The translations under genes were made by a program, and so were the position numbers. Positions 12,822 to 31,078 of a stretch of DNA of 48,065 nt are shown piece by piece; the stretch's first letter is position 1; each line of letters starts with the position of its first letter. The notes below the pieces were generated by a model, which was not told the origin of the DNA, made no database searches, and worked only from the letters and a program-made list of their open reading frames with translations. This DNA is from a bacterium (lineage in GTDB: Bacteria; Electryoneota; RPQS01): NCBI GenBank assembly GCA_013360195.1, contig JABWCQ010000017.1:1-48065 (forward strand), read 5' to 3'.

Positions 12822-13892
12822 GTGCGAATTCTCTTCAGCAACGCCTCGCTTATGTGGGGCGGTAACGAAAAATGGACACTCAATGCTGCCGAGACTCTCG
12901 CTTCGCGGGGTCATCAGGTCTCTGTGGCCGTCCGCGAACGAAAGCTCTGGCTCGAACGCCAAAAAGCTAATCAGGTCAATTGGATTGAGTTTCCGTTCTT
13001 GAATGATGCAGACCTGCGCACAATTCTCGGATTGCGCCGCTTCATCAGACAAAACAAAATCGAAATTTTTCTCCCCACTCGCAGCCGCGACTATTGGCTC
13101 GGAGGGTGGGCTGCGCTCGGAACGTCGGCAAAATATGTGATGCGCATGGGCATCACCCGCACGCTCCCCAATACAATCAAAGAGAGATTGCGCTACTCGA
13201 TTTGGCCTGACGGCATTATCGTCAATGCCGAAGCCGTCAAACAATCTCTCATCGCGCATCCGTGGATTAAGGGCGACCGCATTCGCGTCATCTACAACGG
13301 CGTCGACCAGCGTGAACGCTGGACCCAAAGTGCTACGCGCAATTCTCAGGAGTTGCTGGTGCTTGCGGCCGGTCGTGTTGAAAGCGAAAAAGGCTTTGAT
13401 GTTCTCATTGATGCAATGGCACTCGCAGTCAAACAAGAGCCGCGCCTGATTTGCGAAATCTGGGGACACGGAGATCTCGTTGATTCGCTGAATGCGCAAA
13501 TCGAACGTCTCAACCTTGAAGAACATGTCCGTCTGCGCGGCTTCACACACGACATCAACCGCGAACTCGCACGGGCTGATATCGCGGTTTCATCTTCCTA
13601 TCGCGAAGGCATTTCAAATTTCATTTTGGAAAGCTGGTCAGCCGGAGTTCCACTCGTTGCAACTTCCATCGAAGGCTCAGCCGAAATCGTTCATGACCGC
13701 ACACGCGGCCTGCTCGTTCCGCCGGGCGATGCCCACAGCATGAGCAACGCTATCCTCGAACTCGTTAAGAACAAATCACTCCGCGAAACCTGCATCGCCG
13801 GGGGAAAACAAGCCATCGCCACGACTCACAACTGGACTGCCATGGCGGAAAAGATGGAAGCGTTTTTCTTGGAAATAGCAAATAGGAAATAG
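12822..13892 (+). CDS. Family 4 glycosyltransferase
   Basis: 356 residues, GTG start (12822) giving MRILFSNASLMWGGNEKW, the usual GT4 N-terminus with a GG loop. The C-terminal Rossmann domain starts LVLAAGRVESEKGFDVLIDAM and has the donor-binding SSYREGISNFILESWSAGVP motif (E-x7-E). The last residues (EIANRK, stop at 13890-13892) are encoded by a GGAAATA heptad repeat, so the natural C-terminus may have been altered by insertion of the following element. First gene of the plus-strand glycan operon that continues at 14324. Confidence 0.9.
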   Translation: MRILFSNASLMWGGNEKWTLNAAETLASRGHQVSVAVRERKLWLERQKANQVNWIEFPFLNDADLRTILGLRRFIRQNKIEIFLPTRSRDYWLGGWAALGTSAKYVMRMGITRTLPNTIKERLRYSIWPDGIIVNAEAVKQSLIAHPWIKGDRIRVIYNGVDQRERWTQSATRNSQELLVLAAGRVESEKGFDVLIDAMALAVKQEPRLICEIWGHGDLVDSLNAQIERLNLEEHVRLRGFTHDINRELARADIAVSSSYREGISNFILESWSAGVPLVATSIEGSAEIVHDRTRGLLVPPGDAHSMSNAILELVKNKSLRETCIAGGKQAIATTHNWTAMAEKMEAFFLEIANRK

Positions 13893-13920
13893 GAAATAGG
13901 AAAGAGGAAATACGACCTCA
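13892..13920 (+). repeat. Left inverted repeat of the four-helix-bundle unit
   Basis: 29 nt, G/A-rich; reverse-complement partner at 14285-14313 with 4 mismatches. It is part of the longer run of 7-nt units starting at 13871. Confidence 0.75.
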
Positions 13921-13926
13921 ACTATT

Positions 13927-14283
13927 ATGATAGACGACCTGAAGAATAGAACAAAAGCTTTTGCCGTTCGTATTGTTTCGCTTCACAATAGTTTGCGGGA
14001 GAAAAACTCGGCACAAGTGATTGCAATTCAGGTTCTCAAATCTGGAACTTCCGTAGGGGCTCATTGTGCTGAAGCCTCTCGCGCAAAGTCAAGAGCTGAC
14101 TTCTTGAATAAGATTGTTGGTGCGTCCCAGGAGCTTGAAGAAACATTGTATTGGATGGATTTACTCGTCGAAGCCAAGTTGATAAAAGAATCAAGATTAG
14201 AGTTGCTAAGAAAAGAGGCTGATGAACTAATGGCCATTCTAACTGCAATCGCCAAGAACACAAAGGCCAGAGGTATGAAGTGA
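13927..14283 (+). CDS. Four helix bundle protein (23S rRNA intervening-sequence/S23 family)
   Basis: 118 residues, almost entirely helical. The family signature is clear: LKSGTSVGAHCAEASRAKSR, then ADFLNKIVGASQELEETLYW, then LLVEAKLI, corresponding to the 'SgtSigAN-EA-A-S-dF--Kl-iA-kE--Et-yWl-lL' pattern of PF05635-type proteins. These were first noted in intervening sequences within 23S rRNA genes and are common as orphans; their biochemical role is not settled. The family is related in fold to the Avd accessory protein of diversity-generating retroelements, but no reverse transcriptase is present here. The gene is less GC-rich than its neighbours and is bracketed by inverted repeats. Confidence 0.92.
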   Translation: MIDDLKNRTKAFAVRIVSLHNSLREKNSAQVIAIQVLKSGTSVGAHCAEASRAKSRADFLNKIVGASQELEETLYWMDLLVEAKLIKESRLELLRKEADELMAILTAIAKNTKARGMK

Positions 14284-14284
14284 C

Positions 14285-14313
14285 TGCGGTCCTCTTTCCT
14301 CTTTCCTTTTTCC
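14285..14313 (-). repeat. Right inverted repeat of the four-helix-bundle unit
   Basis: Reverse complement reads as GGAAA-rich heptads and matches 13892-13920 at 25 of 29 positions. It ends 10 nt before the GTG start of the ABC exporter gene. Confidence 0.75.
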
Positions 14314-14323
14314 AATTTCTTAA

Positions 14324-16168
14324 GTGATTACCTACCTCCGTTTCATAAACCCCTTTAAGCGCTACCCGCGTCATCTCATCCTGACCGCGCTGAGCACGCT
14401 GTTCTATGTCGTGTTCAACACGCTGTCCATTTGGTTGATTGCGCCGGTCCTGAATATCATCTTCCTGCCCGGCAAATCCACCGAACCTGCCGCGACGGAA
14501 GTGCTCACCGGCGGCCTTCGCGGAATGTATGATAGCCTGAAACAGTGGTCGTGGGAGATGCTCGGTGGAGGAGAACCGCTCTCCGTGCTGCCGCGGCTGT
14601 GCGTCGCGTTGGTTATTGTCTTTCTGCTGAAGAATATCTTCGCCTACTTGCAGATGCACTTTGTCTCCTATGTCGAGCAGCGGATGATCAAAGACCTGCG
14701 CGACCGTGTGTACGCGCATGTCATTCGCCAGCCCTACAAATTTTTCGACCGCAGTTCGACCGGTGAATTGATGAGCGCGGTGATGAATGACGTCAACACT
14801 CTGTCCGTCACTTTCCAGCGCGTCTTCACTCAGGCCGTCCGCGATCCCATCACCGTGGTCACGTTTCTGATAATTTTATTCGGCATATCGTGGCAGTTGA
14901 CCTTGGCCGCGCTGGTCATCGTTCCGGCTTTTGGTGTGCTGTTCAAGAAAACCGGCGGAAGCCTGAAACGAAAATCGGGCCGCATTCAAGAAGGTTTAGC
15001 CGAAATAACGGGAGCACTTCAAGAGACCATCAGCGGTGCGCGCCTGATCAAATCCTCTGCAACCGAAAAGCTGGAAACGGAACGATTCGAAAACAGATCA
15101 AGCCGTCTGTTCCGTAATTCACTCAGACTGGCGCGGCTTGAACGGCTTGCGTCTCCGCTCTCTGAAACCATTGGCGTCATCATTATCGCCTCCGTGCTTC
15201 TGCTCGGTGGTCAGCAGGTTCTCTCTGGTTCCCTGCTCGATGCCGAAGACTTTATCCGTTTCATCGTGGTGTTGTTCTCGATGCTTGCTCCCGCTCGTGC
15301 CGTCGGGAATTTGCACAACTATTTGCAAATCGGAGCCGCCGCCGGTGCGCGCATTGACGCACTCTTAAACGAACCCATCGAAGCACCGGCAGAGTCCGTA
15401 AATGAGCAGACCATCAGCGGACTGAATGACTGCTTGGCCTTTGAGCATGTCTGGTTTCGGTATCCGACTTCCGAGCAATGGGTTCTGCGCGATATCAGTC
15501 TAACCGTCAAGCGCGGTGAACGCGTCGCACTCGTCGGCCGTTCCGGCAGCGGCAAAACCACCATGGCGAACCTGCTGCCGCGATTCTATTCGGCTGAACG
15601 CGGACAAGTGCTCTGGGACGGAACAAACGTCGAATCCATCGCGCGCGAATCGCTGCGCAAGTATATCAGCATCGTCAGTCAGGACGTGTTCCTGTTCAAC
15701 GAGAGCGTGCGCTACAACCTCACCTACGGCCGCAGCGAAATCACCGAAGAGCAATTGAATGAGGCCATGCGCCGCGCACAATGTACGGAATTTGTGCAAA
15801 GACTCCCGCACGGACTCGATACGGTCGTCGGTGAACGCGGTGCACAGCTCTCCGGCGGACAAAAACAGCGTATCGCCATTGCCCGCGCATTGTTGAAAGA
15901 CGCGCCGTTGCTGATTTTCGATGAAGCCACCTCCGCACTCGACAACGAGTCCGAGCGGCTGATTCAGCACGCGCTCGAAGAACTCTTCCGCGAACGCACT
16001 GTGATTCTCATCGCCCACCGCTTGAGTTCAATCCGATTTGCCGATCGCGTCATCGTGCTCGACGAAGGTCAAATCGCCGCGCAGGGCACACACGACAAGC
16101 TGCTCGAGCAAAGCGACCTTTACCGCACACTCACTCAACTCTACGAGCGCGAAAGTCTCTCCGAGTGA
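14324..16168 (+). CDS. MsbA-like ABC exporter (fused membrane and ATPase domains)
   Basis: 614 residues, GTG start. Residues ~1-340 form a six-helix type IV exporter domain (segments around 20-45, 90-110, 165-205, 280-320). The nucleotide-binding domain has Walker A GRSGSGKTT (~405-413), signature LSGGQKQR (~509-516), Walker B LLIFDEATSALD (~528-539) and the switch His in IAHRLSS. Half-transporters of this kind flip lipid A core or lipid-linked glycans as homodimers. Its place between glycosyltransferases and a heptosyltransferase supports a lipid or LPS substrate. It overlaps the next gene by 4 nt. Confidence 0.93.
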   Translation: MITYLRFINPFKRYPRHLILTALSTLFYVVFNTLSIWLIAPVLNIIFLPGKSTEPAATEVLTGGLRGMYDSLKQWSWEMLGGGEPLSVLPRLCVALVIVFLLKNIFAYLQMHFVSYVEQRMIKDLRDRVYAHVIRQPYKFFDRSSTGELMSAVMNDVNTLSVTFQRVFTQAVRDPITVVTFLIILFGISWQLTLAALVIVPAFGVLFKKTGGSLKRKSGRIQEGLAEITGALQETISGARLIKSSATEKLETERFENRSSRLFRNSLRLARLERLASPLSETIGVIIIASVLLLGGQQVLSGSLLDAEDFIRFIVVLFSMLAPARAVGNLHNYLQIGAAAGARIDALLNEPIEAPAESVNEQTISGLNDCLAFEHVWFRYPTSEQWVLRDISLTVKRGERVALVGRSGSGKTTMANLLPRFYSAERGQVLWDGTNVESIARESLRKYISIVSQDVFLFNESVRYNLTYGRSEITEEQLNEAMRRAQCTEFVQRLPHGLDTVVGERGAQLSGGQKQRIAIARALLKDAPLLIFDEATSALDNESERLIQHALEELFRERTVILIAHRLSSIRFADRVIVLDEGQIAAQGTHDKLLEQSDLYRTLTQLYERESLSE

Positions 16169-26492: not shown

Positions 26493-26527
26493 GGGGAAAA
26501 CGGAAAGAGGAAAGAAGAAAGGCGAAA
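26493..26527 (+). repeat. Heptad GAAA repeat, 5 units
   Basis: GGGGAAA ACGGAAA GAGGAAA GAAGAAA GGCGAAA: strict 7-nt periodicity, upstream of the restriction-modification operon. Same pattern as at 13871-13912 and 31044-31078. Confidence 0.6.
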
Positions 26528-26532
26528 GCGAG

Positions 26533-30669: not shown

Positions 30670-31040
30670 GATTCATTTTGTTATGCGCGCTGGCCGTTTG
30701 GTTTCAGTCGTGCACATCGCCGACGGATTCGAACGAGGACACTCCGCAAGCCGCGGAGACGCGCACGCTGACCGTGGAAGCGCGCCCGAACGCCATTCCG
30801 GCGGACGGGGTTTCGACGATGACGATTTTTGTCGAATATCATGTGAACGGCGAGCCGGTGACGGACTCGACCAGAGTCATTCTGTTGAATCCGATGGGGA
30901 CACTTAACGCGGGAACAATTTACACTTTCGGCGGAGTGGCGCTGGATACGCTCACGGCCGATACGCTGGCGGGATTGGGCTGGCTGGTGGCGTACGCGGA
31001 CGGCATTCGCGACAGCGTGGAGATCATGTTCACCGAGTGA
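30666..31040 (+). CDS. Small lipoprotein with Ig-like (invasin/Big-type) domain
   Basis: 124 residues. Lipobox WFQSC at residue ~16. The mature part TLTVEARPNAIPADGVSTMTIFVEY...NGEPVTDSTRVILLNPMG...AGLGWLVAYADGIRDSVEIMF is the pattern of a single invasin/intimin-type Ig-like domain ('a~~~~i~AdG~s~~~itv~v~d~~G~pv~g~~V~f'). Likely a surface or periplasmic partner of the preceding barrel protein, to which it is translationally coupled. Confidence 0.8.
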   Translation: MRFILLCALAVWFQSCTSPTDSNEDTPQAAETRTLTVEARPNAIPADGVSTMTIFVEYHVNGEPVTDSTRVILLNPMGTLNAGTIYTFGGVALDTLTADTLAGLGWLVAYADGIRDSVEIMFTE

Positions 31041-31043
31041 AAA

Positions 31044-31078
31044 TTAGAAATGAGAAATCAGAAATAGGAAAGAGCAGA
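31044..31078 (+). repeat. Heptad GAAA repeat, solo copy
   Basis: TTAGAAA TGAGAAA TCAGAAA TAGGAAA GAGCAGA: 7-nt periodicity. It shares GAAATAGGAAAGAG with the left end of the four-helix-bundle unit at 13892, but no such gene is here. It sits between two genes of a probable operon. Confidence 0.65.

Follow-up and report, generated by a model that had tools for sequence, protein, structure and literature searches.

A PF05635 gene between inverted heptad arrays in a glycan operon of an Electryoneota bacterium: one copy of a probable IVS-like, REPIN/RAYT-like element

Results

A single gene enclosed by inverted heptad arrays

We analysed a DNA stretch of 48,065 nt (the window; contig JABWCQ010000017.1 of assembly GCA_013360195.1) from a bacterium of the Electryoneota lineage RPQS01, in which an operon of glycan genes carries a compact inserted unit of approximately 450 nt (13871..14322, + strand). 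Upstream lies the gene of a GT4-type glycosyltransferase (12822..13892, +; PF00534/PF13439), whose last codons and stop codon TAG (13890-13892) fall within the 5′ terminal array (13871..13912, +). This array comprises the six heptads GGAAATA, GCAAATA, GGAAATA, GGAAATA, GGAAAGA and GGAAATA. It is followed by a gene of the PF05635/TIGR02436 family (13927..14283, +) encoding a predicted four-helix-bundle protein of 118 amino acids, hereafter IVP, and then by the 3′ terminal array (14285..14322, − strand), the reverse complement of the 5′ array, with four clear units at 14293-14320. The GTG start of an ABC transporter gene (14324..16168, +; PF00664/PF00005) is located directly past the 3′ arm. Further downstream, neighbouring genes overlap by 4 nt at the ABC transporter/glycosyltransferase (16165/16168), glycosyltransferase/phosphoesterase (17241/17244) and phosphoesterase/GT9 (19268/19271) junctions.

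An earlier reading of the window made without database searches (the sequence-only reading) had reported inverted repeats matching at 25 of 29 positions that enclose only this gene, a glycosyltransferase ending within the repeat, and 4-nt overlaps at the other downstream junctions, all of which we confirmed by recount and coordinates. The 25 agreeing positions lie between 13892-13920 and the reverse complement of 14285-14313, and the open reading frame (ORF) 13927-14283 is the sole gene between the arms, with no transposase within the element. The arms proposed by that reading stand, while their extent was underestimated: the 5′ array exceeds 29 nt and begins at 13871, and lengthened arms (13883-13920 and 14285-14322) are complementary at 32 of 38 positions. 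The element has an inverted-repeat score of 23; across the rest of the window, 743 flank pairs of equal spacing scored 13 at most. In the minimum-free-energy RNA fold predicted for the element, the arms are paired around the gene. The host site is the glycosyltransferase/ABC transporter junction and not a 23S rRNA gene, Rfam giving no match in the window.

The encoded protein

The product of 13927-14283 matched PF05635 with 64.2 bits (cut-off 33.8) and TIGR02436 with 78.3 bits (cut-off 24), and is encoded by the only PF05635 copy in the genome of the window (G000). Its AlphaFold2 model has four helices (pLDDT 94). The solved structures closest to the monomer model are 2RLD and 2GSC, each with five chains, and XCC0516, an IVP of Xanthomonas campestris, is a homopentameric torus according to Lin et al. 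2006, as that work is cited in PMC4990558 and PMC3936711. The next fold matches, with weaker E-values and TM-scores of 0.7-0.8, were to Avd and to the ribonucleoprotein of diversity-generating retroelements. The ratio of nonsynonymous to synonymous substitution rates was 0.06, 0.11 and 0.08 in the three pairs of IVP genes whose synonymous changes were not (nearly) saturated, indicating purifying selection. The reverse transcriptase profile RVT_1 found no match in G000 or in the family members G002, G003, G007 and G009. A retroelement with its own reverse transcriptase was accordingly rejected for G000, and an encoded reverse transcriptase is not needed in most of the carriers checked.

An empty site in a related genome

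Eleven genomes of the family, among them a same-genus relative (G001), were used for site comparison. In G002 (L168; 63% identity of the ABC transporter), the orthologous glycosyltransferase gene meets the ABC transporter gene with a 4-nt ATGA overlap and no unit between them. The search for an empty site in relatives, which the sequence-only reading had suggested, thus bears out its view of an inserted unit with its own ends. When the ABC transporter gene was followed into family genomes, no IVP gene was present at the site in G001, G002, G003, G004, G006 and G010; the gene is not fixed there, and arrays do surround its other copies, as described below. In G007 and G008 an IVP gene does immediately precede the same ABC transporter gene, but its arms are of the GAGACTN type and the gene upstream differs. 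In the protein tree the window copy is closest by path to that of G007, and a supported exclusive clade is absent; the G007/G008 copies may stem from the same ancient event with altered repeats or may be separate arrivals. At a different position, five genomes (G002, G007, G008, G009 and G010; L065, L077, L080, L082 and L084) carry IVP elements with differing units at one common site, which precedes a nucleotidyltransferase-like gene starting MKGVILAGGLGTRL.

Recurrence of the architecture with copy-specific units

Two sets of PF05635 genes were examined, the first from 34 genomes (116 gene predictions, 109 distinct copies) and the second (92 loci) from named genomes and plasmids spread over many phyla. 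Approximately 150 of the combined 201 loci are flanked by inverted arrays of short tandem units. Among the 116 predictions, an upstream array was detected in 76 (period 7 in 63) and a downstream array in 86 (period 7 in 70). Joint scoring of both arms gave a clear period in 88 of the 109 copies (period 7, 76; 8, 10; 9, 1; 10, 1) and in 63 of the 92 loci of the second set (period 7, 53; 8, 8; 9, 2), compared with 24 of 405 distal flanks of the same loci. The median element length is 477 nt (136 copies). Units of 9 or 10 nt, in the rare copies L040, L113, L229 and L254, provide natural variants for ideas about spacing.

The sequence-only reading had asked whether other copies share the heptad ends. 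They share the architecture, whereas the GGAAATA-type heptads are not general: the unit varies from copy to copy, each copy or clade having its own. One terminal sequence common to all copies was therefore discarded as an explanation. Within a copy the arms match at 0.82, versus 0.50 to the arms of other copies (69 copies). In a protein tree of 108 rows, unit similarity drops with tree distance (Mantel rho -0.275; null standard deviation 0.025), and period labels require 8 changes, compared with at least 9 in 1000 shuffles. Unit and period thus follow the phylogeny of the IVP; this association stems partly from shared descent of gene and arms, and recognition is therefore not proven by association alone. 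On the strand read inward, the arms are rich in G: GC skew there is +0.49, with positive values for 134 of 150 copies. Recognition may hence be specific to one strand. Strict selection for a stem was also considered and rejected, as the corresponding test of mirrored variants yielded a weak signal.

Placement between operon genes

Among 136 two-arm copies, 114 have a same-strand ORF end near the 5′ arm (median +1 nt; interquartile range -3 to +7) and 114 have a same-strand ORF start just past the 3′ arm (median 13 nt), with both present in 100. Among 800 random control positions, an ORF ended within the wide range at 151 and within the tight range at 13. The host operons are unrelated and comprise cas, restriction, acc and glycan genes; by annotation or sequence, elements lie between cas2 and cas1, between a DISARM gene and a BREX-type gene, and between hsdS and hsdR, while Xanthomonadales elements lie between genes read by eye, without profiles, as accB and accC. 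On Nostoc and Anabaena plasmids (L286, L291), IVP genes are situated between cas2 and cas1. Insertion of IVP elements would explain why 23S_rRNA_IVP genes in cas loci were listed as a CRISPR-associated function in a 2013 paper (PMC3936711).

Dispersed arrays without a gene

The GGAAATA-type unit occurs without the gene at approximately 30 further places in G000 (3.2 Mb). Sampling 89.5 kb around pattern matches yielded 35 array detections versus 0.2 in shuffled sequence; the "reversed pattern" control was not neutral, as it spells AAGGATA, itself a common heptad. Arrays of G000 and G008 combine a GAAA core with variable spacer letters; of 52, 29 consist of exactly five units and a further 18 of four or six. 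They abut gene ends and are oriented away from the gene in 37 of 52 cases, versus 109 of 400 random positions. Of 48 arrays examined for pairing, 19 have a convergent partner and none a divergent one, arrays occurring singly or in convergent pairs.

Two gene-less five-heptad arrays, both of the GGAAATA family, lie in the window itself, one at 26495..26529 (+) and the other at a stop codon (31039..31073, +); neither was seen at the orthologous place in G001, which has neither an IVP gene nor a GGAAATA match. In 400 kb each, 12 period-7 arrays were found in G002, with its six IVP genes, and 0 in G001; several of the G002 arrays spell AAACTTG, the unit of one of that genome's own IVPs. As separate observations, a REP-like palindrome (GATTCCGGCGGGGA...TAATCCCCGCTCGGCG) directly follows gene-less arrays at five places in G000 (L085, L093, L094, L095 and L100; contigs C2, C9, C14, C6 and C5), so that a second repeat family adjoins several heptad arrays, and at L182 (G008:C8:85480-86200) an AGACT-type array is seemingly nested between the arms of a GGAAATA pair, bringing two heptad families together.

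Published repeats and known systems

Scattered arrays of GGGAATC, 186 in number, are known from X. campestris through the work of Rehm et al. 2015 (PMC4692102); they are intergenic, lie close to the 5′ gene, mostly have four units and include 70 convergent pairs. The same authors report prominent arrays at differing genes in two Xanthomonas species. The unit of these arrays is that of Xanthomonas IVP-gene arms: orthologues of XCC0516 from X. arboricola, X. dyei, X. vasicola and Luteimonas have four-unit GGGAATC-type arms, the X. vasicola protein apparently having a frameshifted C-terminus, and a Dokdonella IVP gene has GGGATTC arms. The Xanthomonas and Nostoc arrays were published as G-quadruplex repeats, and the IVP gene is unmentioned in the passages of that paper covered here (PMC4692102). 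No IVP was matched in this analysis to the Nostoc GGGGACT or the Geobacter GGACCGG unit. We found no literature linking PF05635 to dispersed heptads, in coverage that left subscription papers and most preprints aside.

The likeness to 23S rRNA intervening sequences (IVS) drawn by the sequence-only reading fits what is published for Coxiella burnetii, where three tandem GACAGAT and a GACAGAA precede the S23p start and RNase III cuts a 28-bp terminal stem and so excises the IVS (PMC4990558). Both elements have a PF05635-type ORF between complementary ends, similar lengths (428 nt in Coxiella, approximately 450 nt here) and heptamers beside the start codon; they differ in that the window element is hosted by a protein-coding operon and that its unit families are dispersed genome-wide. 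As in the repetitive extragenic palindromic (REP) sequences, their inverted doublets (REPINs) and the RAYT genes (PMC3116915), one gene is flanked by its own flavour of repeat, singlets and inverted doublets are dispersed, and several flavours may coexist in one genome. However, IVP is a four-helix bundle rather than an HUH/Y1 transposase, and the units are tandem 7-10-mers rather than palindromes. Insertion sequences and miniature inverted-repeat transposable elements (MITEs) share inverted termini and an empty site with the window element, which in contrast lacks a transposase and holds only PF05635 inside its arms. Avd (4DWL, 8UB7) has the fold of the IVP model and occurs in a solved ribonucleoprotein with reverse transcriptase, whereas G000 has no RVT_1 match.

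Discussion

We consider it probable that the window unit is one copy of a widespread, compact IVS-like and REPIN/RAYT-like element, in which a pentameric IVP would recognise its own heptad arrays. That the unit is related to the 23S rRNA IVS is largely supported by the data presented here, and we assign it to the IVS/IVP elements, with a credible case for a new repeat-protein system. The element consists of a single PF05635 gene flanked by inverted arrays, each of 4-6 short tandem units, and is lodged between the stop codon of one operon gene and the next start. As in the solved structures 2GSC and 2RLD, IVP may form a pentameric ring, which could bind its own array on the G-rich strand, probably at a ratio near one unit for each subunit. 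A comparable picture, by analogy only, is offered by TRAP (trp RNA-binding attenuation protein), a ring whose subunits each read one short repeat; its fold is unrelated to IVP, it has 11 subunits and it regulates one pathway. In RNA, base pairing between the arrays may form a stem that separates off the IVP message and that RNase III may cut, by analogy with the Coxiella IVS. Such a stem would bring the upstream stop beside the downstream start, and insertion would therefore disturb the operon little. Gene-less arrays and convergent pairs may relate to IVP as REPs and REPINs do to RAYT genes. As IVP has no recognised nuclease, the inserting enzyme is probably host-derived.

Other explanations account for parts of these data. 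It is unlikely, in our judgement, that IVP acts as a global regulator of the TRAP or CsrA type, with the scattered arrays as its evolved operators and nothing mobile involved. Operators of this kind could well sit at gene ends with a short core, fixed spacing and mostly five units, as the dispersed arrays do, and similar heptad sets were named regulator sites by the authors of a Geobacter study (PMC2700814). However, both of the two arrays tested are missing at orthologous sites of the same-genus relative, the prominent arrays of the two Xanthomonas species lie at different genes, and IVP elements occur in operons of unrelated function. We regard as rather improbable an IVS acting through RNA only, in which the arms persist solely as a double-stranded substrate of RNase III and protein recognition of the repeats is irrelevant. 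The arms do pair in the predicted fold, but a stem needs neither a tandem period, nor a period tied to clades, nor solitary five-unit arrays; moreover, the IVP is under purifying selection in the pairs tested, and variant units are hardly mirrored between arms, which suggests that recognition of each array counts more than exact pairing. Very improbable is a MITE-like element that an ordinary transposase or reverse transcriptase mobilises in trans, IVP being passenger cargo. The empty site and inverted ends would suit it, and the REP-like palindromes beside several arrays suggest that another mobile system is present; against it, the ends vary among copies in step with the IVP tree, something that passenger cargo need not do, RVT_1 has no match in G000 or in most of the IVP-bearing relatives checked, and a target-site duplication was not seen. 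Ordinary microsatellite slippage around an unremarkable gene, to which the length of some arms and their variable unit number might point, deserves practically no credence given the inverted orientation, the copy-specific arm matching, the nearly exclusive period of 7-8, the core-plus-variable units and the controls.

Several observations weigh against recognition of the arrays by a mobile IVP element, the interpretation we favour. At the window locus, G001 has another gene in this position, which leaves G002, at 63% ABC transporter identity, as the basis for the empty site; inspection of the junctions by eye gave no sign of a target-site duplication, although the empty site is too diverged for a firm judgement; and the predicted fold is moderately better than shuffles (z -1.93). 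The strict threshold for calling an array is missed by 21 of 109 PF05635 copies in the first set and by 29 of 92 among the named loci. Unit number is not universally five, with some arms reaching approximately 20 and the Xanthomonas arrays being mostly of four units (PMC4692102). Mirroring of variant-unit order between the arms is weak (mean z 0.24, t 2.2), and exact arm-arm pairing is thus not strongly selected. With regard to dispersed arrays, a strict scan of 400 kb of G000 returned no period-7 array, arrays being sparse there, and the PF05635 gene was detected neither in G006 (80% complete), which has GGAAATA matches, nor in G005, which has AAGGATA matches. Finally, we found in the literature no binding, RNA or mobility experiment for any free-standing IVP copy.

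Beyond the window, we tentatively put forward a broader proposal, which we hold to be possible though somewhat short of an even prospect. PF05635 proteins would be the recognition half of a widespread repeat-protein system, in which a pentameric ring reads tandem 7-10-nt units at about one per subunit and the protein sets both word and spacing. The system would spread IVS-like elements, as well as hairpins of bare arrays, into the junctions of operon genes and explain many unexplained heptameric repeats of bacteria, the 23S rRNA IVS being its first example seen. The proposal joins three observations that have so far been treated separately, namely 23S rRNA intervening sequences, the four-helix-bundle genes that stand free of them (those in cas loci among them) and genome-wide heptad arrays. 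The dispersed heptameric repeats of Xanthomonas, so far ownerless, gain an apparent owner. A very common protein family of unknown function but solved structures is offered a testable role, and the way in which the word and pitch of the repeat go with protein clade may amount to a readable code of protein-nucleic-acid recognition.
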